64,000 nucleotides of DNA from Rubritalea profundi (GTDB lineage: Bacteria; Verrucomicrobiota; Verrucomicrobiia; Verrucomicrobiales; Akkermansiaceae), in assembly GCF_002954445.1 (NCBI RefSeq), contig NZ_MQWA01000001.1:3260401-3324400 (forward strand). The letters run 5' to 3'. Positions 831-14,109 of this stretch are shown here, in pieces. Each line of letters starts with the position of its first letter. Within the stretch, counting starts at the first letter, position 1. The notes beneath the pieces were generated by a model, which saw only the letters and a list, made by a program, of their open reading frames with translations, did not search any database and was not told where the DNA came from. Made by a program: the position numbers and the translations under genes.

Positions 831-1940
831 TCACTTGCCATTCAACTCGCTGGTGCGGTCCTTGACGGAGAAACCGCTCTCCATCTTGATGATCTTCGGA
901 GCCTTCAGTCCTGCGACAGCCTTACGGACGTCGACCGACTCCACCCCTTGGGTCTGGTAGGTCTTGTAGTAGTAGACCTTGTTGGCCGTGTCACCGACTG
1001 AGGTCCAGAGAGTGTAGTCAGTGAGGTCCTTGTGGGCGGGATTGCGTATGGCTCCTTTCGGAATGTCAAACACATTCAAGATGTGGAAGGCCTGGAAGAC
1101 GCCATCCTTTGCTGTCTTTGAGGGCAGAGCGGTATTGGCGAAGGCCACGGCGCGCACGAACCGGGTCGGCGAGGAGAGATCTCCGGGAAGGCCTACCATT
1201 CCAGTGCCTTCACCGAACGGAGTCAGCTTCAGGGATCCGACCTCAATCGTTTCCTTGTTGAAGGGGGTCAGACCGACGTAGTTGCGCAAATTTGTCAGGT
1301 GCCAGTCGTAAGTCGGCGTGTTGGTCACTGCGTTGACCGTGTTTTTGTGTACCGTGAGGCCCTCGGCGGTATACTCAATGACCACCGAGGCTCCGGTGGC
1401 GTCGCTAACCGCGTAATGGAAGGGGGCGAAGCCATCGATTTCCTTCACGTAAGACCCGACGACCTCAATTTTCTTCAATCCGGCCACCACTTCCTCGACC
1501 GTAGCAAACTGCCCGAGCATCCAGTTACCTAGTTCCTCACTCGACACGGCTTTGCCTCGGTTTGCGTCGGAAGCCTCACCGAAGACGGCGTGCCCCGCAA
1601 AGTAGAAAGCTCCGTAATAGAGCCCTGCCTCGTTGAGACCATCGAACACAATCGGCATGTCCAGCCCGTTGGCGCCAAGAAATCCATACTTCGCCTCGTA
1701 GGTGAAACCCTCGTGTTCGGGGTCGAGACCCAAGGTGGTCATCTTAGTTCCAGGCGGCACGACCAAAATGTTGGATTTGATGTCGAAGCCGAACTCCATC
1801 GTGCGCGCGGCAAGCACAACGCCATCCAGACATCTAAGGATGATCCCGGTGCAGGCTTGTGTTGGGCTGGTATTCGCTAGGAGGGCTACTAAAAGGCCAG
1901 CCAATGGTGGTGCTGGAAGGAAGGAAGATAATTTAACCAT
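831..1940 (-). CDS. Choloylglycine hydrolase-family (linear amide C-N hydrolase) secreted protein
   Basis: A protein of 369 residues when started at the ATG ending at 1940; the open frame continues upstream, but this start places a classic signal peptide first. A hydrophobic segment (residues 10-24) ends in TQA followed by Cys30, and in this N-terminal nucleophile family the cysteine exposed by processing is catalytic. Arg46 lies 16 residues after it, the same spacing as Cys2 to Arg18 of bile salt hydrolases. The family cleaves amide bonds of bile salts, penicillin V, acyl-homoserine lactones or N-acyl ethanolamines; the substrate here cannot be told. It is predicted to be exported. It is separated from hsdR by a hairpin-bearing gap and seems unrelated to the defence genes. 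Confidence 0.8.
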   Translation of the reverse strand: MVKLSSFLPAPPLAGLLVALLANTSPTQACTGIILRCLDGVVLAARTMEFGFDIKSNILVVPPGTKMTTLGLDPEHEGFTYEAKYGFLGANGLDMPIVFDGLNEAGLYYGAFYFAGHAVFGEASDANRGKAVSSEELGNWMLGQFATVEEVVAGLKKIEVVGSYVKEIDGFAPFHYAVSDATGASVVIEYTAEGLTVHKNTVNAVTNTPTYDWHLTNLRNYVGLTPFNKETIEVGSLKLTPFGEGTGMVGLPGDLSSPTRFVRAVAFANTALPSKTAKDGVFQAFHILNVFDIPKGAIRNPAHKDLTDYTLWTSVGDTANKVYYYKTYQTQGVESVDVRKAVAGLKAPKIIKMESGFSVKDRTSELNGK

Positions 1941-1996
1941 ATGCTCTTTTGAATACCTGAGTGATATGAATAGGGCAAGTTTTTTTCCAAATCTTC

Positions 1997-2022
1997 CTAC
2001 CGGCCACAATCTTGGCCGGTAG
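1997..2022. terminator. Hairpin between hsdR and the hydrolase
   Basis: Perfect inverted repeat CTACCGGCC / GGCCGGTAG with an 8-base loop, in the gap downstream of hsdR and upstream of the hydrolase. Read on the minus strand it is not followed by a T run, so it is a weak terminator candidate or another palindromic repeat. Confidence 0.35.
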
Positions 2023-2124
2023 ATGCGAAATCCCGTTGCCGGGCGGAGAGTCCCGCAGTTTCAGCATTCTCTTCTTGCTACAAAGATCCACATTTCAATA
2101 CTCGTTCTGCGACGCTGACATCTT

Positions 2125-5100
2125 TTAGGAACTCTGGTACTTCTTAAAGTTTTCTGCCTGTTCGAAGATCTCTTGGTAGACTTCGTTGCGGTCGACGGGG
2201 GGATAGCCGTTTTCGGCTAGGGCGATGATGAGGTTCACCTTGAGGGCGGCTTTGATGTCGGCTCGGTTGTTCCAGTCGGGGAACTTGGCTTGATCGTCTA
2301 CGATGGCTTTTACCTTTTTAGCTAGGTCGATGAGTTTGTCTTCTGGGTACTGGAACTTGTACTTGATCGCGAGGGCTTTGAGAATGTCGTAGAACGCCTT
2401 TTCTTCGAAGTCGATGCCGTCTGGCATGTCATCCTGATTGCACTCATTAGCAAGGTCTTGGAACATCTTGAGCATCTCTTCGGTGAGGTCGTCGATGCCA
2501 TCAGCGGTCCAGGCTTCGTTCTCTTTGCGCTCGTTGTACTTCTCGACCAGTTGGTTGAACTTCTGGGAGAAATCGACTCCCTTCATCTTGTTCACCTTCT
2601 TCAGCTCCGAGATCGCCTTCTTCAGCATCTGCTGCAGTAGCTTGGCCTTGGTGTTGGGGAGCTTAATGTTTGAGAGCTTGGTGAGGTAGTCTTCATCGAA
2701 TATGTCGATCTCGCTGGCTTGCTCGTCACCGAGCTTGAAGATCTCTTCGACTCCATCGCTCTTGATTGCTTCCTCTATCATCTCGCGCACCTTGCTGTTC
2801 ATCTGCGCCGTGTCTGGTGCGTCGCCTTTGGTGAGCTTGGCTATGATGGTGCGCACAGCGAGGTAGAAGTGGATCTTGTCGCGTTCGAGTTCAGTGATCT
2901 CCTCAGCGCCACAGCAGACATCGTAGGCGGCTTTGAGGCGCTTCATGATCTGCATGAATCGGTGTTCGATCTTGTCGGTGATCTGAGCGAACTCAGAGGC
3001 CTTGTTGAGGCACTCTAACTGCATCACCGAGTCACCCGTGAAATACGGGGAGCTGTCGAAGGTATGAAACAACTTCGCGAGTAGGTCCAGGTGGTTGCGC
3101 ACCTCGGTGATCGAGAGCTGCACGTCCTCGAAGTTAGTAGCATCGGTCTTGGAATACATCGCCAGCGCCTGGTTCATCGCCGACTTGATGCCGAAGTAAT
3201 CCACCACCAGCCCCTTGTCCTTACCTTCGAACTTCCGGTTCACCCGGGAGATCGTCTGGATCAGGTTGTGCTTCTGCAGTGGCTTGTCGATGTAGATGGT
3301 ATCGAGGAAGGGGACATCGAAGCCGGTCAGCCACATGTCCACCACGATGGCGACCTTGAAGTTACTCTTCGCATTTTTGAACTGACCGTCGAGCATCTTG
3401 CGGTGGTCGGAGTTACCCAGAATATCGTAGAACTCTTTAGGGTCATCCTTGCCACGGGTCATTACCATCTTGATCTGGGAGGGATGAAGCTCCAGCTTCG
3501 TCCTTTCGCCTGCAGAGTGTCCCGTATAAAGCCTCGCAGTAGATTTTAAATCAAACCCCGCGGTTGAAGGGTTCTCTAAAATATACTTCACCGTATTATC
3601 AAAATGCTCCTCATTGCGAATAAACCTATCCCAATACTCATTTTGCCAGAATGATTTTTGTGCGGCAGGAATTCCGAGTTTCAATCTACGATTGTGCTGT
3701 AGTGCCCACTTGCCAGTGAAGGATTTCCAAGACTGCACGATTTTTGATATTTCATCCTTAGCATGGATCAACACATGCACATGGTTAGGCATGATACTCC
3801 ATGCGAGGAGGTCATATTTTTCACCTTTGTGATGTAGCAGGGCATCCATCATGCACTCTGCCATCTCAGGATTTGAGAGAGCACAGCAACCTGCTCCTTG
3901 ATCTAGGTAGTATTGTTGTCTTTTGCGAAGTTCGAGTGGCCTTTTGTCTTCAGGGAAAGCTAGCAAATCGGATTTTATCTTATCGAGAACCTCTTTAGGC
4001 ATGCTGTCACCTAGCCGGAAAGTGATGGATTGTATCAGTCCGTCTTTGTCTCGGTGGGGGAGGTTGCGCGTGTGCCATTCTTTTGATTCGCCGAATGATT
4101 TGGTTAGGGCTTCTGGGAGGGATGGAGCTCCAGCTCCGTCCATGAATTCGCGCATAGTAACGCAGCTGGAGCTACGTTCTCCCAGAAGCTGGATGATTTC
4201 TTTATAAAAGTGGTAGGCTATCTCGCGGCTGGAGCTGACAAACATCGCTTTGCCAATGACCGTTGAGCCCTCCGCCACACGCGTCTCGTAGTGGTCGACG
4301 AAGTCCTTCGCCAGCGCTTCGAGGCGGTCCTTGTCGCCAAGGATGCTCTTCATGCTCGCCATTGCCTTCTTGCTTTGCTCGACAGCATAGTCGCTAGAGC
4401 CGTTCTCTTCGCATTGCTGGTAGTAGGCTTCTATCTCCTTGAGCTTGGAGTTGTCGGCCAGCACCTTGGCGGCGCGGCCTTCGTAGACGATCCGCACCGT
4501 GATCTCGTCTTTGACGGATTCAGCCATGGTGTAGGAATCGACTACCTGACCAAATACTTCCAGAGTAGCGTCGATCGGGGTGCCGGTGAAGCCAACGTAG
4601 GTGGCGTTCGGCAATGAATTGTGCAGGTGCCAGGCAAAGCCGTAGGTCTTCTTCACCTCCGTCTCGGTGACAGTGAGCTTTTGGTCGAGATTGACCTGGC
4701 TGCGGTGGGCTTCGTCTGAAATACAGATCACGTTGTTGCGCTCGGTGAGCAGCTCGGCATCTTCGTTGAACTTGTGAATGGTAGTGAGCAGTACACCGCC
4801 ACTCTGGCGGCCTTTGAGCTTCTTTCTGAGATCATCACGGCTGGCCACGCTGCTGATGTCCGCATCGCCGATGTAGCCCTTACCATTGGTGAATTGATCC
4901 GACAGCTGGGTGTCGAGGTCGGTGCGGTCGGTGATCAGCACAATCGTCGGTGAGGCCAGCTCGATGCTTCTCATTAGCAGACGGCAAAGGAACAGCATGG
5001 TGTAGCTCTTACCACAGCCGGTTGCACCGAAATACGTGCCACCCTTACCATCTGGGATGGACGTAGCTCCTGCTGCGTCCTTATTCGAATTATTCAACGG

Positions 5101-6126
5101 AGCTGGAGCTCCATTGCTCCCAGGAGTCTTTCTATGCAATAGGATGTTTACGAACAGCTTCCTCGCCGCGTAGTATTGCGGGTAGCGGCAGACGATCTTT
5201 ACCTCTGCCTTCGTGGTGTCTGGAAAGTAGATGAAATTACGAATCACATCCAGCAAGCGGCGTCTATCGAATAGCCCATCGATCAAGGTGTGCAGCGAGT
5301 CGATCCCGTCTTTCTCGATCTGCTCATCGCCAGTGACCTTGCGCCACGGGTAGAAGAAATCATACTTGGAGAAGATCGATCCCATCTTCGAGTTCACCCC
5401 ATCGGAGATCACGCAGAAGGCATGGTACTTCATCAGCTCGGGGATGTCTCTGGCGTAGCGGGTGGCGAGTTGAACGTAGGCGTCGTGGATCGTCGCCTCC
5501 TCGCGGATCGCGCTCTTGAACTCAAACACCACCAGTGGAATGCCATTGATGTAGAGGATGCCATCGGGGATGCGCTTCTCTTCACCGACAATCTCTAGCT
5601 GGTTGACTAGTTTGAAGATGTTCTGGGAGAACGTAGCTCCAGCTGCGTTATAAATAGCCTCATCTTCAGCAACGATACAAGAAACCTCGCCGGGTTTCGG
5701 TGGGTTGTGGGCTGAGAGCTCAGAGTAATCGAGCAGCTGGATGTAGAGATCCTTCTTGGTGTGGTCCTCACGCTTCAGTTGGAATCCATCACAAACCAGC
5801 TTCATGATCGCCTTGTTACTGCCGTAGAGGTCAGCCGCAGGATAACTTTCTAACTGTGAGATGATGGCGTTGACTTCACCTTCGCTGATACCTTCAGAGG
5901 CGTATTGTTTCGAGAGGTATTTACGCAGGTCGTCCTTGATGAGTACTCCTGGGAGTGACGTAGCTCCAGCTGCGTCCTTATGCGAATCGTTCAACGGAGC
6001 AGGAGCTCCATTGCTCCCAGAGCGCGTGAGCGTGTCGCCCGTCACATGCGGGAAACCTTGTTCGCCAAGCAGCGCAATGATCGCTTGTTCGAGTTTCGCT
6101 TCGGTGAATTTTGAATGCTGAGTCAT
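2125..6126 (-). CDS. hsdR: Type I restriction endonuclease subunit R with in-frame REP peptides and an inserted RAYT domain
   Basis: The restriction and DNA-translocation subunit of a type I R-M system, 1333 residues. About 1030 is usual for this family, and the excess matches four inserted segments. An N-terminal PD-(D/E)xK nuclease is visible (Asp188, Glu202, Lys204 in PDG...FEFK). The SF2 motor carries Walker A GATGCGKS (Lys373) and DEAH (471-474), and resumes after the insert with IVVDMWLTGFDVP and QTISRVNR. REP-encoded peptides occupy residues 36-59, about 160-168 and about 335-359. Residues 648-884 are a complete RAYT transposase domain between the REIAYHFYKEIIQ and KMVMTRGKDDPKEF segments. 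All inserts keep the frame. Whether the subunit is active with 237 extra residues in its motor is unknown. The gene lies 15 bases after fic. Confidence 0.9.
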   Translation of the reverse strand: MTQHSKFTEAKLEQAIIALLGEQGFPHVTGDTLTRSGSNGAPAPLNDSHKDAAGATSLPGVLIKDDLRKYLSKQYASEGISEGEVNAIISQLESYPAADLYGSNKAIMKLVCDGFQLKREDHTKKDLYIQLLDYSELSAHNPPKPGEVSCIVAEDEAIYNAAGATFSQNIFKLVNQLEIVGEEKRIPDGILYINGIPLVVFEFKSAIREEATIHDAYVQLATRYARDIPELMKYHAFCVISDGVNSKMGSIFSKYDFFYPWRKVTGDEQIEKDGIDSLHTLIDGLFDRRRLLDVIRNFIYFPDTTKAEVKIVCRYPQYYAARKLFVNILLHRKTPGSNGAPAPLNNSNKDAAGATSIPDGKGGTYFGATGCGKSYTMLFLCRLLMRSIELASPTIVLITDRTDLDTQLSDQFTNGKGYIGDADISSVASRDDLRKKLKGRQSGGVLLTTIHKFNEDAELLTERNNVICISDEAHRSQVNLDQKLTVTETEVKKTYGFAWHLHNSLPNATYVGFTGTPIDATLEVFGQVVDSYTMAESVKDEITVRIVYEGRAAKVLADNSKLKEIEAYYQQCEENGSSDYAVEQSKKAMASMKSILGDKDRLEALAKDFVDHYETRVAEGSTVIGKAMFVSSSREIAYHFYKEIIQLLGERSSSCVTMREFMDGAGAPSLPEALTKSFGESKEWHTRNLPHRDKDGLIQSITFRLGDSMPKEVLDKIKSDLLAFPEDKRPLELRKRQQYYLDQGAGCCALSNPEMAECMMDALLHHKGEKYDLLAWSIMPNHVHVLIHAKDEISKIVQSWKSFTGKWALQHNRRLKLGIPAAQKSFWQNEYWDRFIRNEEHFDNTVKYILENPSTAGFDLKSTARLYTGHSAGERTKLELHPSQIKMVMTRGKDDPKEFYDILGNSDHRKMLDGQFKNAKSNFKVAIVVDMWLTGFDVPFLDTIYIDKPLQKHNLIQTISRVNRKFEGKDKGLVVDYFGIKSAMNQALAMYSKTDATNFEDVQLSITEVRNHLDLLAKLFHTFDSSPYFTGDSVMQLECLNKASEFAQITDKIEHRFMQIMKRLKAAYDVCCGAEEITELERDKIHFYLAVRTIIAKLTKGDAPDTAQMNSKVREMIEEAIKSDGVEEIFKLGDEQASEIDIFDEDYLTKLSNIKLPNTKAKLLQQMLKKAISELKKVNKMKGVDFSQKFNQLVEKYNERKENEAWTADGIDDLTEEMLKMFQDLANECNQDDMPDGIDFEEKAFYDILKALAIKYKFQYPEDKLIDLAKKVKAIVDDQAKFPDWNNRADIKAALKVNLIIALAENGYPPVDRNEVYQEIFEQAENFKKYQSS
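3475..4185 (-). mobile_element. REP-RAYT-REP element inserted in frame in hsdR
   Basis: 711 bp bounded by CTGGGAG (3475-3481) and CTCCCAG (4179-4185), exactly 237 codons. A paired REP lies at 4113-4185 and a single REP at 3475-3503. The middle encodes a RAYT (REP-associated tyrosine transposase, IS200/IS605-like Y1 superfamily). The HUH motif is His782-Val783-His784 within MPNHVHVLIH, and the probable catalytic tyrosine is Tyr848 in YILENP, followed by a typical NPSTAG ending. The transposase has no stop of its own at its end and its reading frame is that of hsdR, so it is translated as part of HsdR. RAYTs are normally single-copy genes flanked by the REPs they mobilise. I know of none nested in frame in a host enzyme. 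Confidence 0.88.
5052..5123 (-). repeat. REP pair in hsdR before Walker A
   Basis: 72 bp, two inverted hairpins (GGACGTAGC / GCTGCGTCC type and GGAGCTGGAGCTCC type) with the CTCCCAG border. It is translated in frame as about residues 335-359 (GSNGAPAPLNNSNKDAAGATS), inserted between the HRKTP and DGKGGTYFGATGCGKS segments where relatives have only a short loop. The length is a multiple of three. Confidence 0.85.
5623..5649 (-). repeat. Single REP in hsdR near the nuclease domain
   Basis: A solo 27-bp REP (CTGGGAGAACGTAGCTCCAG and on) translated as NAAGATFSQ near residues 160-168, just before the IFKLVNQ segment that precedes the nuclease motif. It has one hairpin only, without the partner seen in the 72-bp copies. 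Confidence 0.75.
5949..6020 (-). repeat. REP pair in hsdR N-terminus
   Basis: 72 bp flanked by CTGGGAG and CTCCCAG, translated as residues 36-59 between GDTLTR and VLIKDDLRKYL. It is identical base for base to the copy in the truncated hsdR (7823-7894) and at the same codon position, so it was present before the 5' part of hsdR was duplicated. Confidence 0.88.
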
Positions 6127-6141
6127 ATGATAACTGAAGGG

Positions 6142-7242
6142 TTACTGAGTAGGGACATCTGATTCATTAAGAAGTAGCGCCAAAAAGTTTTTGTGAATGA
6201 ATAGTTTTTCTCTGCCTACTTTCTCTTCTTCAAGTATGCCTAGTTCGATAAGAGAATGAAGGTAAGTCGAGGCTGCTTGCCGCTTAGCCACACCCGCATC
6301 GACAAGGTCCTGAATGCGGCAGTAGGGTTGACTAAAGAGCACATCGAGAAGTTCTGCCGAATAGATTTTCGAGGCATTCTCTTTCAGCCATGCTTTGGTG
6401 CTTCGTTTAAGATTACGGATTTCACTGATCTTATGGTTTGTCCACAGAGCTGCATCTTCGACAGTTTCTAGGATGTAGAGAATCCAGCTTTGCCAATCGC
6501 CTGCGCTGGTGACACGATTTAGGTTTTTATAATATTCAGCCTTTCGTTTGATGATACTACGGCTGTGATAGAGGATGGGTGTATCGAGTAAGCCTGCTGA
6601 AATGAGATAAAGTAGATTGATGATTCTTCCCGTTCTACCATTGCCATCGGTGAACGGGTGAATGGCTTCAAATTGATAATGTGAGACGGCCATGACTACC
6701 AATGGGTCGAGATCGCTGTCAGTGTCATGAATAAATCTCTCCCAGTTTGCCAACTTCTCGCGGAGTAGATCTTCGCCAACTGGTGGTGTGTAGATAGTCT
6801 CCCCAGTAAGGTCGTTTCGCAGCGTTGTGCCAGGCACTTGACGAATCTTCATTTCACAGTGCTTGATTTCACTGCAGATTTGTTCGGCGGTGTTGGTGCA
6901 GAGAGGTGTCGTCTCTAGGCTGCGATATCCTGCGTAGAGCGCGTGACGATAGTTCATCGCCTCTTTGGTCGCTGGGTCAAAGGTGGTGCCGGTCAGCGAA
7001 CTCTTGAATAGGCTGTCCGTGGTGGTGACGATGTTCTCAATCTCAGAACTAGCCTTGGCTTCCAGCAGGGGGAGAATGTTGATTAGTAGTGATCGATTCG
7101 GTAAAAAACCTGCAGCTTGATTGAGGTTTGCCAGTGCGGTTCTTGACTTAATACACTGTTTCAGCACGCGCACAGTTTCTAGCTCCTTTGCGGGAGGTAG
7201 AGGGGGGAGATCGTTGTAAGCTTGTGCGGGGTTCCAGGTCAT
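6142..7242 (-). CDS. fic: Fic-family protein adenylyltransferase with C-terminal winged helix
   Basis: 366 residues. Fic enzymes move AMP from ATP to target proteins. The full motif HPFTDGNGRTGR is at residues 195-206 with catalytic His195. An N-terminal inhibitory motif of the (S/T)xxxE(G/N) type is present as Ser65...Glu69-Asn70, which places it with self-inhibited class II Fic proteins such as SoFic. The C-terminus (about 285-355) looks like a winged helix-turn-helix, suggesting DNA binding and possibly autoregulation. It sits just upstream of hsdR and may be transcribed with it. Clustered TGTCGA motifs lie upstream. Fic genes embedded in type I R-M operons are common; their role there is not settled. 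Confidence 0.9.
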   Translation of the reverse strand: MTWNPAQAYNDLPPLPPAKELETVRVLKQCIKSRTALANLNQAAGFLPNRSLLINILPLLEAKASSEIENIVTTTDSLFKSSLTGTTFDPATKEAMNYRHALYAGYRSLETTPLCTNTAEQICSEIKHCEMKIRQVPGTTLRNDLTGETIYTPPVGEDLLREKLANWERFIHDTDSDLDPLVVMAVSHYQFEAIHPFTDGNGRTGRIINLLYLISAGLLDTPILYHSRSIIKRKAEYYKNLNRVTSAGDWQSWILYILETVEDAALWTNHKISEIRNLKRSTKAWLKENASKIYSAELLDVLFSQPYCRIQDLVDAGVAKRQAASTYLHSLIELGILEEEKVGREKLFIHKNFLALLLNESDVPTQ

Positions 7243-7260
7243 GATGATGAAAGTTGATTT

Positions 7261-7343
7261 TATCGACAGATTTAATCAATAGGTCGATGGCGTAAGCATG
7301 TCAATGAGACGTGTCGATATTTTTGTGTAATGTCGACACATCT
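7261..7343. promoter_or_regulatory. Clustered TGTCGA inverted repeats upstream of fic
   Basis: The gap upstream of fic contains several related hexamers: ATCGACAG (7262), GGTCGATG (7282), GTGTCGATA (7311) and TGTCGACACA (7331). The last two form an imperfect inverted repeat, AGACGTGTCGATA against TGTCGACACATCT. This looks like an operator, possibly for the winged helix of the adjacent Fic protein. That link is inference. Confidence 0.4.
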
Positions 7344-7548
7344 CATGAATATGTCTCTAAAAAGCGTTTTTGGCGACAAATCGAGCATCATTGCATTTGC
7401 CTCTTCCAATGTCTAAAAAATCAATCTTGGAAAATGACCACCCCCTATGGTTGCCATATATTCGCGCAGGTGTTTTGTTTTCAATGGATTGCATGACTAT
7501 TTGTTAGCGTATTTTTTCACAAGTTGCAGGGTCTTTTTGTGAAGAGTT

Positions 7549-7620
7549 CTGGGAGGATGGAGCTCCAGCTCCGTTCTTGTTCTGATCGTTAATAACACAG
7601 CTGGAGCTACGTTCTCCCAG
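7549..7620 (-). repeat. REP pair at the hsdR truncation point
   Basis: 72 bp from CTGGGAG to CTCCCAG with two inverted hairpins. It marks the precise point where the truncated hsdR loses similarity to the full copy. Translated in a different frame from the other REPs (WENVAPA). It probably served as a recombination or insertion site. Confidence 0.8.
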
Positions 7621-7822
7621 AGGTCCTTCTTGGTGTGGTCTTCGCGCTTCAGTTGGAATCCATCGCACACCAGCTTCATGATCGCCTTGTTGCTGCCGTA
7701 TAGGTCAGCCGCAGGATAACTTTCTAACTGTGAGATTATAGCGGTGATTTCACCCTCGGTGATGCCGTCAGCTGCGTATTGTTTCGAGAGGTATTTACGA
7801 AGGTCTTCCTTGATAAGAACTC

Positions 7823-7894
7823 CTGGGAGTGACGTAGCTCCAGCTGCGTCCTTATGCGAATCGTTCAACGGAGCAGGAGCTCCATTGCTCCCAG
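7823..7894 (-). repeat. REP pair in truncated hsdR
   Basis: 72 bp, identical to the REP in the N-terminus of full-length hsdR (5949-6020) and at the equivalent codon position. It is shared by descent through duplication of the hsdR 5' end. Confidence 0.88.
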
Positions 7895-7984
7895 AGCGCG
7901 TGAGCGTGCCGCCCGTTACATGCGGGAAACCTTGCTCGCCGAGTAGGGAGATGATCGCTTGTTCGAGTATCGCTTCGGTGAATT

Positions 7985-8965
7985 TCATGAGTATAGACCT
8001 ATGTTTTCTGCACAATGTTTTCTAACGATGTCTAACCACTTTGAATACCAATGCCAATATTTTCCTGCAACCATTGTGCCATACCCTTTACTAGAATTTT
8101 TAGCATCGTGAGCCTGCCACAGTTGAGTGTGATGGTGCATCTTGAAAGCTGAATATCCATCTTGCTTGATGAGCTCTACTATTTGCTTAGGTAGATACTT
8201 AGTACGTTCAGTTTCTTTAATGACTGCATATTCTTTGTTAATAGAGTCAGCGAGAGGCGAGTCACTCTTAACAAACTCGATGACGCGGTCCGCTTGTCCT
8301 TTCGAGTTGGCAGTCTTCGGGACGAATAGGATACGATAAGCGTATTGCGGATTTGAAAATTCAGCATCCGTCAGCCTTTCATCAAAGTCCTTGATATAGG
8401 ATTGGATATTGGCTGGTAATTCTGGGTGTTCCGCAAGCATGTCTTTTTGATCCATTGAAATAGTGGAAAATTGTAGACTGAATGAGAGGTGTTTTTCGAT
8501 CCCGTGACTGTCGCCAAATAGTTTTTTTATGTATTCGTTATAGTTTAAACAGCACGCTTGGAATCGAGCGCTTAATAGGTCGTCAATACGACTGGTCATC
8601 TGGTGCTCAATTTCATGGCGTAGACCAATCAAGAACCGCAGGTTGTTGGCAGCGTTCTTATCGATAGGGCATTGATCTTCGTTCAAGCAGCGTTCTAGTT
8701 CCCAATATTTATGAGCACCATGTTTGGTTTTATCGAAGCGACGGCGACTGCCAGCCATGCTGAAATAGCGATATTCGATTCCTTGTCCGCGATAGTGTGC
8801 ATGGAGCATATAGGTCCATGCAATGTTCATTAGCACTACGTAGGACTCAGCTTTGAAGGTAATATTCGGGTTGTTGAATATTTGGACAGCTGCAAGAGCA
8901 CCTTCCCTGGATTTGTGGAGAAGCTCATTTTTGACCGAACCGATTCTTCTGTTACGTGGGGCCAT
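7985..8965 (-). CDS. DUF3644 domain protein, probable HEPN-type defence accessory
   Basis: 326 residues. The start (MAPRNRRIGSVKNELL) and the segment ALAAVQIFNNPNITFKAESYVVLMNIAWTYMLHAHY-type helices (residues about 20-60) match my memory of DUF3644 proteins, which occur in defence islands. A further helical part carries the RHEIEHQMTSRIDD motif near residue 125, reminiscent of the R...H of HEPN ribonucleases. The ATG overlaps the end of the Abi_C gene, and the stop overlaps the truncated hsdR start by ATGA, so translation is probably coupled. The function is not proven; a toxin or RNase that guards the R-M system is a plausible inference. Confidence 0.7.
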   Translation of the reverse strand: MAPRNRRIGSVKNELLHKSREGALAAVQIFNNPNITFKAESYVVLMNIAWTYMLHAHYRGQGIEYRYFSMAGSRRRFDKTKHGAHKYWELERCLNEDQCPIDKNAANNLRFLIGLRHEIEHQMTSRIDDLLSARFQACCLNYNEYIKKLFGDSHGIEKHLSFSLQFSTISMDQKDMLAEHPELPANIQSYIKDFDERLTDAEFSNPQYAYRILFVPKTANSKGQADRVIEFVKSDSPLADSINKEYAVIKETERTKYLPKQIVELIKQDGYSAFKMHHHTQLWQAHDAKNSSKGYGTMVAGKYWHWYSKWLDIVRKHCAENIGLYS

Positions 8966-9767
8966 TTAGCTGTTTTCTAGATTGGTGAGTTTCGAAGAGG
9001 AAAGTGACGAGAGTCGCTGCTGAGCCTATGGCTAGTTTTGCGTGGCGTGGTTGGAGGCCTTTTGCTGTGTGTGATTTGCCGTGGCCTGTGCCGTAGAGAT
9101 TTCGTAGCTCGGCAATGTTGTTACCGATCTGTCCTAGGTTCTGGAGAATGCGTGTGACAGCCTTCTTGCCGCGTGAAGCGTCGTCTACGGCATCTGGTAC
9201 AAGGTGGAGTTCTTTTAGCGTCTGCTTTGTCAATGAAGAGATGTCGATGCTATCGCTGATTTCTTTACCTAGTTCATTGAGGATCGACTTACAGCAGGTT
9301 TCGATCAGCTCTTTAGCTGTCCCTATTGCCAGGGAAGGGTCGGATTCGATGGAGCTTTCCATTCGCTCGATTTGTTTAGTGATGTAGTTAGAGTCGAATG
9401 GTGCTGAAGCTTTTCGTAGAGGGTGTAGTAAGCTGGCTCCTTCGTTCTCTTGAAGCCTTTCTGCAATAGCGCAGCACTCATTATAAAGCGCTTCTGAGGG
9501 TAGATTATCCTCGTCTAATGCTGACATTTCAACCAGTTCTTGGAGTACTTTGCCAACAGTATGGTCATCCTCTTGCGTCCAGAAACTGCGGAGCTTATTT
9601 GCTTTCGAGGAGCCAAACCTACAGTACTTTTCGGAGTGTATATCAACACCGACCAAACCAGCAAAGAAGGCGTCGAAGGTGGGGTCTGAGAACTCTAATA
9701 TATAGCCAGACTTCATGTTTAGCAGGCTTTCAAACTTAGCTTGTTCGCTTGGTCGAAACTTACTCAT
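8952..9767 (-). CDS. Abortive-infection C-terminal (Abi_C) domain protein
   Basis: 271 residues. Residues about 145-265 match the Abi_C type. They hold a helical run with SLAIGTAKELIETCCKSIL, then RILQNLGQIGNNIAELRN, then the motif RNLYGTGHGK, where Arg and His are spaced as in HEPN nucleases. The N-terminal half (about 1-140) is unrecognised. The ATG overlaps the hsdS stop by ATGA and its end overlaps the DUF3644 gene. Proteins with this C-terminus are linked to phage abortive infection. Its position between hsdS and the hsdR remnant suggests an accessory toxin of the R-M locus. Confidence 0.75.
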   Translation of the reverse strand: MSKFRPSEQAKFESLLNMKSGYILEFSDPTFDAFFAGLVGVDIHSEKYCRFGSSKANKLRSFWTQEDDHTVGKVLQELVEMSALDEDNLPSEALYNECCAIAERLQENEGASLLHPLRKASAPFDSNYITKQIERMESSIESDPSLAIGTAKELIETCCKSILNELGKEISDSIDISSLTKQTLKELHLVPDAVDDASRGKKAVTRILQNLGQIGNNIAELRNLYGTGHGKSHTAKGLQPRHAKLAIGSAATLVTFLFETHQSRKQLNGPT

Positions 9768-11208
9768 GAAAGGGCTTCTGTGGTGAGGTGTTCGGCTTCG
9801 GGGAGGCGGAGTTCGCCGGAGATGAGTTTAGGGAGGAGGGTGTCACGGTGTTTGGTTAGGCTTCGGATTTGCTTGCGGTTGTTGTTGATTTTGTTTCGAA
9901 GCGGAATAGTCACTTTATCGAATTCAGCGATGAGTCTTGGTGGAGGTAATTGGACTGGAATGGACTTTATATTATATAGTGGAACTTAGGCTGTGTTGAT
10001 CCGACCGTTCTTCGTTGAACTTCGCCCTTCACTTCCGAACTAATCAGAAAACTGAACAGGTAGTTTTGGCTGATTTTTGACGTATCGATGCTTGTTATTT
10101 TGGCACAGTTCTCAGTCAAGCTTGCTAAGTGCAATTCCTCAGTGATTTGGCAACATAGACCAATTGTCCCGACGATTGAAATTACGACGTCATCTTTCTC
10201 TACGATGTATCTCGAAATTGACGAGAATACTTCGTCCGGCACATATAACAGATTTTTAATATCTATTTCAGTTCCTGTGATGTCTTTAGTTCTAAGATAC
10301 GGATGGTTTGTGGTCTCGTCAGTCAAAGTGCTTCCCTTTGGGAGACGTTTCCCTCCTTTGACTGTTGCAAGGTCAGCCAGTTCAACAACTACCCAGCCTT
10401 CGGGGATCAAGCCTAGGTCTTCGGAGTGGGTGAAGGTGGCGGGGAAGAGGTGGGAATGGGGATCTGGGAGGGATGGAGCTCCTGCTCCGTCCTTTGAAGT
10501 AGTAACGCAGCTGGAGCTACGTTCTCCCAGGGCTTTGCGGCGGGTTTCGGCGCGTTGTTGGAGGGGGGCGGGGATGGGGTTGCCGGCTCGGAGGGCGTTG
10601 TCGATGACGGGGTCGAAGTCGACGAACCAGCTCTTGAAGAGAGCCTGTGCCATCGCTTCGAGCGTGGCATTCATCTTACGGTTCAGCTCGATCTTGTCAT
10701 CGAGTGAGCCAAGGATGTGGGCAATGCGTTTCTGCTCGGCGAGGGGGGGATGTTGAAGTCTACCTTACCTAATTCCTTGCCACTAACAAAAGGCATAGTG
10801 GAGGATGAATTTAGACCTTTGATTCTGGCTTTGTTTGTTGGCTCGTTAAGTAAGTAAGCTAGGAATGATGAGGAGATATGATTTCTGGGCTGTAATCGAA
10901 GGACATTCCAGGCAATAGTAAATTCTTCGTTTGTAGTTACAACAGCCGCATTGCCGAAGCTACTACCAATGTTTAGTGTATAAAATATCTCCTTGTTTGG
11001 GTTTACATGCATCTTTGATCCTAGAATACGTTTCGGTATCAACAAAAGTAACCTTATCGTAATCGATAACCCCAGCCGTTATATTATTAGCTCTAACAAC
11101 AGTGGTGCCACTCTCTGAATATGTCACTTTTTCAGTTGTAGTATTTACGCCCTGATTACGCTTCGTGATGAGATCATCTAGATTCTGATTTTGCCACTCA
11201 CTTTCCAT
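9764..11208 (-). pseudogene. hsdS: Type I R-M specificity subunit, broken by three slippage-type frameshifts
   Basis: It would specify DNA target recognition. Starting at ATG 11208 (MESEWQNQNLDD), the first target-recognition domain runs to ILYTK, where one extra A (10972-10974) shifts the frame. The central conserved region is broken at a run of seven C (minus strand; 10743-10749), where eight would give IPPLAEQKRIAHILGSLDD. The second domain runs to STQPKFHY, where one extra TA in TATATA (9973-9978) shifts into the conserved C-terminus (RDTLLPKLISGELRLPEAE). An in-frame REP sits in the linker between domains. Each break is in a short repeat, so phase variation, true decay or sequencing error are all possible. 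The end overlaps Abi_C by ATGA. Confidence 0.85.
10464..10530 (-). repeat. REP pair in hsdS linker
   Basis: 67 bp from CTGGGAG to CTCCCAG with two hairpins (GGATGGAGCTCC and GAGCTACGTT types). It is read as GERSSSCVTTSKDGAGAPSLPD after RAETRRKAL, in the spacer before the second target-recognition domain. It is the same family as the inserts in hsdR and hsdM. Confidence 0.85.
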
Positions 11209-11398
11209 AACCCAGTCCCTCCAAGTTTTTACGGATCGCTATATCAAGCTTGCTAGCCTGCTCCATCTGCTGATAGAGCGTCTGGCTCATCTCAGTCATT
11301 TTGGTCTCGAAAGGAATACCGACGCCTGTGGCCAGCCTGTGTGTTGCACGCAGACAGGCGAATGCTGAATTGTGAATGATGAATGTTGAATTATTCAT
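11198..11398 (-). pseudogene. Duplicated C-terminal tail of HsdM
   Basis: 66 codons. The last 43 residues (GIPFETKMTEMSQTLYQQ and on, ending NLEGLGYGK) are a diverged copy of the HsdM C-terminus (GIPFETKMAELSSTLFSQ, ending NLKSLGYEE). The first 20 or so residues (FIIHNSAF) come from a low-complexity ATTCA-rich repeat. It directly overlaps the hsdS start, as hsdM normally does. The rhuM gene has therefore been wedged between hsdM and hsdS with a second copy of the hsdM 3' end. Confidence 0.75.
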
Positions 11399-12446
11399 GA
11401 TCGCCTCCTTGTTGATGTTTGGAGATGTTTTCTTCTAGGTTGAGAAACTGGTCGAAATCGCTAGAGAAAAGTCGGTCTTGGGTGATACGGTATTTTTCGA
11501 ATTCGGTTTCTGCGTGGGTTTTAGCTAACTCGGCAGTGACCTTGCCGGAGTCGTTGAGGATTTCTCTGTCCCAGAGTGTGAGGAATCCGCTGAGGCGTTT
11601 TTCCCAGTCTTCCATGGTCATGGGGATTTTGCGCATTGCCTGCAATTCTGCCATGTCGAGGTAGGCTGAGACGATGCGCTGGAGCTGCTCTAGCTCATTG
11701 TCAGATAGGTAGTTTTTAGCGATAGAGACATCGTATTTATGGATTTTCCCGCTGGGTGCTCCGTCCCAGTTGGTGAGTCCCATTTTTTCCTTTTGATGGT
11801 CTGCACGGTCGACGATGACCTCGGCGGCAGTGTTGCCATGGATTGCGTAGTGGAGTTTATTCTGCACGGCGGCGAAGAAGCGCTGGGTAGCGGTGGCTGA
11901 GGAGTCGTAATCCAAAGCAGTGGCGTAGATGTCGGTAATCTTTTGGTAGAACTTACGCTCTGAGAGTCGGATCTCGCGGACTTTGGCGAGCTGGCGTTCG
12001 AAGAACTCATCGGTGAGATTCCCTCCCTTTTTGAGTCTCTCAGCGTCCATGACCCAGCCTTGGATGGTGTAGTCTTTGACAATGTGGTTCGCCCACTTAC
12101 GGAATTGGACGGCACGTTCGTTTTCGACCTTGAAGCCAACGGCGATGATTGCTTGTAGGTTGTAGTGATTGGTCTGGTAGTTTTTTCCGTCGGCGGCAGT
12201 TATTAAGTATTTCTTAATAGCTGAATCTGGCAGGATCTCTTGGTCGGCAAGAAGGCGTTTTAAGTGTTGATTGATGGCGGGGACAGAGACTCCGTAGAGC
12301 TCGGCCATTAGTTTTTGAGTCAGCCAGATATTCTCGTCTTCATAACGCATTTCCACAGACTGTTCAGAGTCACCAGTAGCTGCGATGAACGTGAGATACT
12401 CAGCTGTTGAGCTTTTTGAAGGTTGAGAGTTTGAATTATTCTTCAT
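11391..12446 (-). CDS. rhuM: RhuM family protein
   Basis: 351 residues with the RhuM-type layout. An N-terminal DNA-binding-like part has IWLTQKLMAELYGVSVPAIN and HLKRLLADQEILPDS, then YNLQAIIAVGFKVENERAVQ and FRKWANHIVKDYTIQGW. A C-terminal part contains RFFAAVQNKLHYAIHGNTAAE. RhuM was first named from a Salmonella pathogenicity island and is often found between hsdM and hsdS; its biochemical role is unknown to me. The ATG overlaps the hsdM stop by 11 bases, and its stop overlaps the hsdM-tail remnant. It appears intact and contains no REP insert. Confidence 0.88.
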   Translation of the reverse strand: MKNNSNSQPSKSSTAEYLTFIAATGDSEQSVEMRYEDENIWLTQKLMAELYGVSVPAINQHLKRLLADQEILPDSAIKKYLITAADGKNYQTNHYNLQAIIAVGFKVENERAVQFRKWANHIVKDYTIQGWVMDAERLKKGGNLTDEFFERQLAKVREIRLSERKFYQKITDIYATALDYDSSATATQRFFAAVQNKLHYAIHGNTAAEVIVDRADHQKEKMGLTNWDGAPSGKIHKYDVSIAKNYLSDNELEQLQRIVSAYLDMAELQAMRKIPMTMEDWEKRLSGFLTLWDREILNDSGKVTAELAKTHAETEFEKYRITQDRLFSSDFDQFLNLEENISKHQQGGDHE

Positions 12447-14109
12447 AGCCGAGGGATTTGAGATTTTCGCGGATTGTTTCGTCTAACGCAGTCGCTTCTT
12501 TCATTTGAGAAAAGAGCGTGGAGCTTAGCTCAGCCATCTTGGTTTCGAAGGGGATTCCGTCGTCTTCGAGTGGGGCAGCACCGACGTATCTACCTGGCGT
12601 GAGAACGTAATCGTGTTTCTGGATTTCCTCTAGCTGAACGGATTTACAATAGCCTGCCTCATCCTGGTAGGCTGAGGAGTTTTCAGTGTTCAGTTGGCAG
12701 TGTTCAGACTCGGATGGTGCGGACCTCCATGAATGATAGGTCTCTGCGATTTTCTGGATGTCGTCGCTGGTGAGTTCTTTTTGGGTGCGGGAGATCATGG
12801 AACCGATCTTGCGGGCGTCGATGAAGAGGGTTTCACCGCGTCTATCGCGGTGGGAGAACGTAGCTCCTGCTGCGTTGGTTTCATTTCCCTTTGCAGTGCT
12901 CAATGGAGCTGGAGCTCCATTGCTCCCAGACTTATTCTTCGCTAGAATCCAGATGCAGACGGGGATCTGGGTGGTGAAGAAGAGTTGGCCGGGGAGGGCG
13001 ATCATGCAGTCGACCAGGTCGTTCTCGATCATCTTCTGGCGGATCGCTCCTTCGCCTTTGGTGTTGGTCGACATGGCACCATTGGCGAGGACGAAGCCAG
13101 CGGTGCCGGTCACTGAGAGCTTGCTGACCATGTGGAGGATCCATGCGTAGTTGGCATTGCCGGTAGGTGGGGTGTCGTAGCCCGCCCAGCGTGGGTCATT
13201 GGTGAGTTCGTTCTCGCCGCGCCAGTCCTTGAGGTTGAACGGTGGGTTGGCCATGATGAAGTCGGCCTTGAGGTCCTTGTGCTGGTCCTTGAAAAAGGTG
13301 TCGCCATTGATGGCTCCGAGGTTGCTGGTGATGCCACGGACGGCGAGGTTCATCTTCGCCAGCTTGTAGGTGGTGGAGGTGTATTCCTGGCCGTAGACCG
13401 AGATGTCCTGGGTGTTGCCGTGGTGGCTCTGGACGAACTTGAGCGACTGGACGAACATGCCGCCCGATCCGCAACAGGGATCGTAGATCTTGCCCTTGTA
13501 CGGTTCGATCATTTCGGCGATGAGATTTACCACGCACTTCGGCGTGTAGAACTCGCCACCGAGCTTGCCCTCAGAGGCGGCGAACTTGCCGAGGAAGTAT
13601 TCGTAGACCCGTCCCACGACGTCCTCTTCCTTGTCGGCGACGGTGTCGATATTGCTGACAGCATCGAGCAGGGCGGAGAGCTTGGAGGCATCCAGCTGGA
13701 GGCGGGAGAAGTAGTTGTCTGGCAGCGCACCCTTGAGCGAGGCGTTACTGTTCTCGACCTGCTTGAGCGCGGTGTCGATCTTGAGCGCGATGTCGTCCTG
13801 CTTGGCGTGGGTCTGGATGTAGCTCCAGCGCGAGCTCTCTGGCAGGTAGAAGACGTTCTGCATGGTGTAGAACTCGACCATGTCGATGTAGTCCTGCTGG
13901 CCAGTGGCGATCAACTCAGCACGACGTTCCTCGAACTTGTCCGAAACGAACTTGAGGAAGATCAGCGACAGCACAACGTGCTTGTACTCCGATGACTCGA
14001 CTGAGCCTCGGAGCTTGTTAGCGGTGTCCCACAGCGATTCCTCAAAGGATTTCGCAGGAGCAGTAGATTTCTTAGCCGCTTTACGTGCGGTCTTTTTGAC
14101 GGGTGGCAT
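12436..14109 (-). CDS. hsdM: Type I R-M DNA methyltransferase subunit M
   Basis: 557 residues. It transfers methyl from S-adenosylmethionine to adenine in the target set by HsdS. Motif I is DPCCGSGGMF and the catalytic motif IV is NPPF at residues 288-291. A Lys-rich N-terminus and the helical SLWDTANKLRGS domain begin the protein. A REP peptide is inserted near residues 394-420 between WILAKNK and RDRRGETLFIDA, a loop region in relatives. A second insert of about 15 residues (SEHCQLNTENSS) near residue 468 comes from a TTCAGTGTTCAG-type repeat. Catalytic motifs are undisturbed, so it may still work if HsdS is supplied. It is the first gene of the R-M operon. Confidence 0.92.
   Translation of the reverse strand: MPPVKKTARKAAKKSTAPAKSFEESLWDTANKLRGSVESSEYKHVVLSLIFLKFVSDKFEERRAELIATGQQDYIDMVEFYTMQNVFYLPESSRWSYIQTHAKQDDIALKIDTALKQVENSNASLKGALPDNYFSRLQLDASKLSALLDAVSNIDTVADKEEDVVGRVYEYFLGKFAASEGKLGGEFYTPKCVVNLIAEMIEPYKGKIYDPCCGSGGMFVQSLKFVQSHHGNTQDISVYGQEYTSTTYKLAKMNLAVRGITSNLGAINGDTFFKDQHKDLKADFIMANPPFNLKDWRGENELTNDPRWAGYDTPPTGNANYAWILHMVSKLSVTGTAGFVLANGAMSTNTKGEGAIRQKMIENDLVDCMIALPGQLFFTTQIPVCIWILAKNKSGSNGAPAPLSTAKGNETNAAGATFSHRDRRGETLFIDARKIGSMISRTQKELTSDDIQKIAETYHSWRSAPSESEHCQLNTENSSAYQDEAGYCKSVQLEEIQKHDYVLTPGRYVGAAPLEDDGIPFETKMAELSSTLFSQMKEATALDETIRENLKSLGYEE
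12672..12712 (-). repeat. TTCAGTGTTCAG-type low-complexity insert in hsdM
   Basis: A short run of repeated TTCAG/TGTTCAG units, translated in frame as SEHCQLNTENSSA-like residues in HsdM, in a loop where relatives are shorter. Related ATTCA-rich runs occur at 11360-11398 and 14175-14200. Similar peptides (HNSAF, TEHCQLNTENSS) are familiar as translations of intergenic filler repeats in some bacteria. Confidence 0.5.
12851..12929 (-). repeat. REP pair in hsdM
   Basis: 79 bp ending in CTCCCAG with the same two hairpin types as the hsdR copies. Read as SGSNGAPAPLS...NAAGATFS within HsdM. It is in frame and located in a loop outside the catalytic motifs. Confidence 0.85.

Follow-up and report, generated by a model that had tools for sequence, protein, structure and literature searches.

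The window analysed here, a stretch of 64,000 nucleotides from Rubritalea profundi (contig NZ_MQWA01000001.1, positions 3,260,401 to 3,324,400), contains an hsdR gene whose reading frame holds a RAYT transposase (Table 1), which raises the question of how such an element can reside within a restriction subunit. From sequence comparisons, we consider it probable that the insert is a complete REPtron (REP ends and a RAYT, a Y1-type HUH transposase of single-stranded DNA) carried as an in-frame passenger domain, and that REPtrons are kept, unspliced, in loops that tolerate them and pass from allele to allele at fixed sites. The frame is continuous across the insert, the transposase is intact and under selection, the REP ends are retained, and such insertions recur at fixed sites.

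Table 1. Features of the hsd locus, in window coordinates.
Feature	Position	Strand	Remarks
hsdR (type I restriction subunit, host of the element)	2125-6126	minus	1333 codons, without stop
In-frame REPtron in hsdR (REPIN-RAYT-REP)	3475-4185	minus	codons 648-884; about 31 host residues replaced
RAYT core in hsdR (LPH...YILENP...)	3553-4062	minus	170 codons
HVH (HUH) metal-binding motif	3775-3783	minus	codons 782-784; invariant in an alignment of 68 sequences
Catalytic tyrosine of YILENP	3583-3585	minus	codon 848
Left end of the REPtron, a REPIN	4113-4185	minus	two inverted REPs (CTGGGAG...CTCCCAG)
Right end of the REPtron, a single REP	3475-3503	minus	inverted relative to the left outer REP
In-frame REPIN in hsdR	5949-6020	minus	residues about 36-60; site empty in aligned relatives
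Single in-frame REP in hsdR (YNAAGATFSQ)	5623-5650	minus	outer limits approximate
In-frame REPIN in hsdR	5053-5123	minus	directly ahead of the Walker A stretch DGKGGTYFGATGCGKS
Partial duplicate of the hsdR N-terminus	7497-8015	minus	90% identity; contains the first REPIN, with another REPIN close to the end
In-frame REPIN in HsdS-like ORF (9967-10674)	10464-10530	minus	
In-frame REPIN in HsdM-like ORF (12436-14109)	12850-12929	minus	

The host gene is a type I hsdR, as indicated by a match to the TIGR00348 profile (430 bits) and by its nuclease and SF2 motor domains. Pfam places HSDR_N (residues 7-252) and SWI2_SNF2 (358-571) ahead of a Y1_Tnp domain (769-850), and T1R_D3-like (897-977) and T1RH-like_C (993-1329) behind it, all in one open frame. 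This confirms the original prediction that a RAYT lies in frame inside HsdR, with host motor motifs continuing on either side.

The insert matched PF01797 (Y1_Tnp) with an E value of 4e-10 and NCBIfam REP_Tyr_transpos with an E value of 3e-19. The latter score, 69.3 bits, lies under the curated equivalog cut-off of 80 bits, which is a database threshold and not a biological feature; with the same profile a copy embedded in LeuRS reached 86.6 bits, which passes 80, and the standalone RAYT L002 reached 75.9 bits. By sequence the insert also matches PDB entry 4er8, the E. coli TnpA-REP (E 8e-4). The same structure is the best Foldseek match of an AlphaFold model of the insert (core pLDDT >90), followed by the IS200/IS605 TnpA proteins of IS608 and ISDra2. 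A model of HsdR residues 330-1060 with the insert in place, built from 6 sequences only, had a pLDDT of 37. Given its Y1_Tnp fold, HUH motif and one catalytic tyrosine, we identify the insert as a RAYT. Its motifs, read by eye, are NHVH, FWQ and YILENP, so that both motifs earlier described as intact-looking are indeed present. The published pattern for RAYT subclass 2.4, which is RAYT group 4 (Quentin et al. 2018, PMC6006769), is NH[IFV]H, WQ and YIxNNP, with NNP where the insert has ENP.

We identified the empty site by alignment with relatives that lack the insert. The uninterrupted homologues (L153 and L155-L158) read ...IIxL-RPEWAEVRVAAEGVELSDQQKKQIKPMER-IKMVMTRGKDD..., and HsdR of the window reads ...IIQL-[LGERSSS...KLELHPSQ]-IKMVMTRGKDD.... 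Because the relatives carry about 31 residues at this site, the alignment indicates an insertion plus replacement of host residues and not a clean insertion. The 711-bp REP-RAYT-REP element originally predicted at codons 648-884 therefore stands as to the element, its frame and its coordinates (4185-3475), but host residues were replaced and the left end is a REPIN. Five other genomes share these junctions, one from the Verrucomicrobiales (L072) and four from Bacteroidota (L073-L076), two phyla in all, and none of them has a break in the frame at either junction. One of these orthologues comes from an isolate, Aquiflexum sp. TKW24L, and identical junctions in five further genomes make an assembly artefact very unlikely. 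The hsdR of L072 is split into two frames. Several genomes lack the insert, close relatives included, and the nearest host relative of the window copy, L153 (86% host identity over the tree columns), has an empty site. No HsdR was found in the viral contigs searched. Elsewhere (L034/L005, G050:C39:130016-130606), a longer ORF that has a RAYT as its C-terminus directly adjoins an hsdR without insert, and a fragment of an hsdR N-terminus lies farther on.

A single REP at the left end is kept in L072-L075, with its stem altered in Bacteroidota. Compared by eye as DNA palindromes, the ends of the window copy and of L072 are nearly identical, and in L074 and L075 the stem is different yet self-complementary (CTCGAAGCTCCAGCTTCGAG). 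Palindromes kept with a changed but self-complementary stem fit retention of the REP ends as a DNA substrate, and not solely as peptide.

REPs are also found across the remainder of the hsd locus. The core GGGAGN{4,8}AGCTCC has 15 matches in the window, against 0.23 expected, and 20 in the genome as a whole (4.17 Mb), 15 of which lie within 9.5 kb of hsd genes (window 3477-12927). The 5 matches outside the locus do not exceed those of a reversed-pattern control (9). The window REPs sit in hsdR, its partial duplicate, hsdS and hsdM, and are in frame in the three intact genes; REP cores in L072-L076 likewise lie within open hsd frames. This confinement would be expected either from local hopping by the HsdR-borne RAYT or from acquisition of an operon that already carried the REPs. 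The surroundings have the look of a defence island, with a Fic-domain gene (6142-7242) between hsdR and its duplicate (7497-8015), and adjoining DUF3644 and Abi_C genes (window 6142-9767).

RAYTs embedded in this manner are found in other host genes. The genome itself has four RAYTs, two of them standalone, one in HsdR and one in frame in MetH. In a first look at 58 relatives, the less biased sample, 35 of about 105 RAYT matches (counted by eye) lay in frames of more than 500 aa. Of the 194 distinct RAYT domains in a collected set, 113 lay in ORFs 430 aa or more in length; this set was deliberately enriched for long frames and is not a population estimate, and the 113 include a few terminal fusions or read-through frames that are not true internal inserts. 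The host clusters are LeuRS (28), MetH (26, at three sites), HsdR (10, at two sites), DUF1156 methylases (9, at two sites and in several phyla), CarB (8), adenosine-deaminase-like proteins (4), IspG (4), glycosyltransferase (3), NUDIX (3), Eco57I-type methylase (2), a TPR protein (2) and AlaRS (2), with single cases in RecG, ClpB and others. Pfam backed the host identities that were tested, and NCBIfam backed LeuRS and MetH. The potential restriction-transposase fusion of the original prediction is too narrow, since RAYTs are also embedded in LeuRS, MetH, CarB, AlaRS, IspG, ClpB and others. Similar long RAYT frames were found in further families and classes of a phylum-wide sample. A scan of named genomes detected them in Chloroflexi, Acidobacteria, Chlorobi, Bacteroidota and others; the proteobacterial matches were nearly all standalone.

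In LeuRS the insert interrupts the editing domain, with QVV on one side and (V/I)NSGFLDGL on the other; in MetH it interrupts the activation domain and is flanked by ALSDYVAP and D(Y/F)(I/V)GGFVVG. Both loops vary in length and sequence among uninterrupted genes. In four genomes (G021, G033, G035 and G057) the sole LeuRS match found is the insert-bearing one. Two further MetH sites and a second IspG site (L051 in G004, L255 in G241 and L253 in G088) imply that the same host genes were entered more than once. The DUF1156 methylases have RAYTs at site A (L101, L103, L118 and L134) and at site B (L108, L114, L115, L137 and L138), in organisms of several phyla and with REP-like peptide repeats at the borders. 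The LeuRS gene of the R. profundi genome (G000:C1:2384961-2387572) appears split into frames of 664 and 272 aa, perhaps through a sequencing frameshift or a real lesion.

The embedded transposases appear to be maintained. Both histidines and the tyrosine are intact in 107 of 107 scorable embedded RAYTs, as in 67 of 67 scorable standalone ones. The dN/dS of close embedded pairs is mostly 0.03-0.18, near that of the flanking host. The RAYT domain embedded in HsdR is under purifying selection.

In a tree of 177 RAYTs the host label changes 31 times, compared with 100.7 times when labels are shuffled, and the RAYTs of the six HsdRs group in a single clade (support 99). This clustering by host gene suggests that inserts remain with one host gene and site for long times. 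In a tree of HsdR built without the insert, monophyly of the genes that carry it is rejected (AU test, p=1e-7) and at least 3 changes are required, so that the histories of host and insert, as reconstructed, differ. The correlation (rho) between RAYT and host identity is 0.86 for the HsdR set, 0.85 for CarB, 0.34 for MetH, where coupling is weak, and -0.06 for LeuRS, where the two are decoupled; the coupled divergence in CarB and HsdR fits plain co-inheritance. For the MetH pair L262/L265, the RAYT dS is 0.08 compared with 0.70 for the host, and a near-identical tract spans the insert and short flanks. In the HsdR pair L212/L219 the hosts are 92-98% identical and the insert between is replaced. 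Both patterns are as expected if alleles had exchanged the insert at a fixed site, whether through homing or through ordinary recombination. No co-conversion tract is visible at the old HsdR transfers, and thus we infer the route of spread there. Alternatively, these old events may reflect repeated loss of the insert through recombination with empty alleles.

The features of the HsdR insert could also reflect a domesticated functional fusion, in which the RAYT was recruited for a new activity of HsdR and other hosts, such as REP-guided nicking by the restriction complex. Recruitment would agree with the long persistence of the insert in more than one phylum, its intact active site, strong purifying selection, the correlated divergence of RAYT and HsdR and a REP family present only in the hsd locus. 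However, the same RAYT type resides in functionally unrelated enzymes, the close homologue L153 manages without the insert, and the insert is swapped between alleles. We consider domestication unlikely; such a restriction function is possible for HsdR but would leave the other hosts unexplained. The original prediction also raised internal initiation, by which a separate RAYT protein would be made from its own start within hsdR and the fusion would be incidental. The genome does have standalone RAYTs, and two in-frame ATGs lie 27 and 31 codons ahead of the RAYT domain in the window copy, but no Shine-Dalgarno sequence was recognised at either, neither is conserved in the five orthologues, and in L076 the 45 codons leading up to the domain include no start codon, ATG or other. 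Further, an ATG precedes the domain in only 24 of 105 embedded RAYTs, as opposed to 47 of 64 standalone ones (p=1e-10), and internal initiation leaves the in-frame state of both junctions unexplained. It is therefore highly unlikely, and the other option raised, that HsdR carries an extra transposase domain, is better supported by frames open at both junctions in all orthologues and by purifying selection.

The lifestyle of the embedded RAYTs, in essential genes, at fixed sites and with patchy spread, resembles that of inteins, and the insert might be removed after transcription or translation by intein-like splicing, a self-splicing RNA or translational bypassing. We judge this very improbable, as both junctions are crossed without a break in the reading frame, a property that neither RNA removal nor bypassing would demand. 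Pfam scans of HsdR and the tested hosts detected no intein/Hint domain, and an Rfam search of window 1900-8200 returned no intron or other family; we thus rejected the identities of intein and mobile intron. That the insert is a decaying pseudogene or an assembly artefact is scarcely credible. Most of the insert-bearing genomes are metagenome assemblies and the L072 hsdR is in two frames, but there are six independent HsdR loci, the Aquiflexum isolate among them, and about a hundred embedded cases without stops and with dN/dS far below 1. For the embedded RAYTs as a whole class, decay or artefact is refuted.

We therefore favor a passenger domain, for which splicing is unneeded. The RAYT would be translated within the host polypeptide, where its placement in a permissive loop would make it tolerated, and its expression would be drawn from a gene that the cell keeps. 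The insert may spread by exchange between alleles of the host gene, through recombination or a homing-like replacement. The RAYT would also cut REP single strands, and small REPINs would thereby move into other loops of neighbouring genes.

Inteins with homing endonucleases occupy fixed sites in conserved host genes, are translated with the host, have a patchy distribution and are exchanged between alleles. The embedded RAYTs share the conserved genes, the fixed sites, the patchiness, the exchange between alleles and presumably the translation with the host, but no splicing domain was found in them; the passenger apparently stays in the mature protein, and its nuclease is a single-strand HUH enzyme. 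The Y1 HUH fold is common to the HsdR insert and to IS200/IS605 TnpA (IS608, ISDra2). However, the insert best matches the REP-associated branch (4er8, REP_Tyr_transpos) and its ends are REPs, and no TnpB was found beside it. It resembles RAYT/TnpA-REP subclass 2.4 in its HUH motif and single tyrosine (NHVH, WQ, YIxNP), inverted REP ends and REPs able to sit in frame. RAYTs of subclass 2.4 have in-frame REPs inside their own genes (PMC6006769) and are described there as separate genes, whereas here a whole REPtron lies in frame within another gene. The intragenic GTAG REPs of Opitutus terrae and the Rickettsia palindromic elements are likewise palindromic elements in frame in protein genes, including DNA repair genes and those for tRNA synthetases (Di Nocera et al. 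2013, PMC3733652). Those elements are non-autonomous and encode about 20-80 residues (PMC3733652), whereas the HsdR insert also encodes a transposase.

In-frame REPs and standalone RAYTs are thus already known. The open-access literature yielded no case of a complete RAYT lodged in frame within a host gene; such RAYTs apparently are undescribed, and this is consistent with the earlier suspicion that no example had been described. The 2018 survey of Quentin et al. dropped ‘unexpectedly long’ members as fusions or annotation errors (PMC6006769), and embedded RAYTs may explain such annotations.

In the usual view, transposases disrupt genes or occupy the space between them. One family recurs here, with active sites intact, as an additional domain within enzymes. 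These hosts are hard for a cell to do without, as when the enzyme is its only leucyl-tRNA synthetase. Should the fusion be translated, it would offer an answer to the persistence of low-copy RAYTs, natural cases of housekeeping enzymes that tolerate the insertion of a large domain, and a non-splicing counterpart of inteins. A wider proposal, which we hold tentatively and with some doubt, is that autonomous HUH transposases form a distinct class of mobile elements, which would settle in frame and without splicing at fixed sites, in tolerant loops of essential and defence genes, home between alleles, and place an active transposase on the surface of an essential enzyme.

The L072 frame that encodes HsdR residues 6-477 contains a further in-frame insert of about 150 residues, at about frame residues 287-444 (PHPQPLSQGEKG...STSGRGAGGEG). 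This insert, which may resemble a DUF559-type endonuclease, is possibly a second kind of in-frame passenger.
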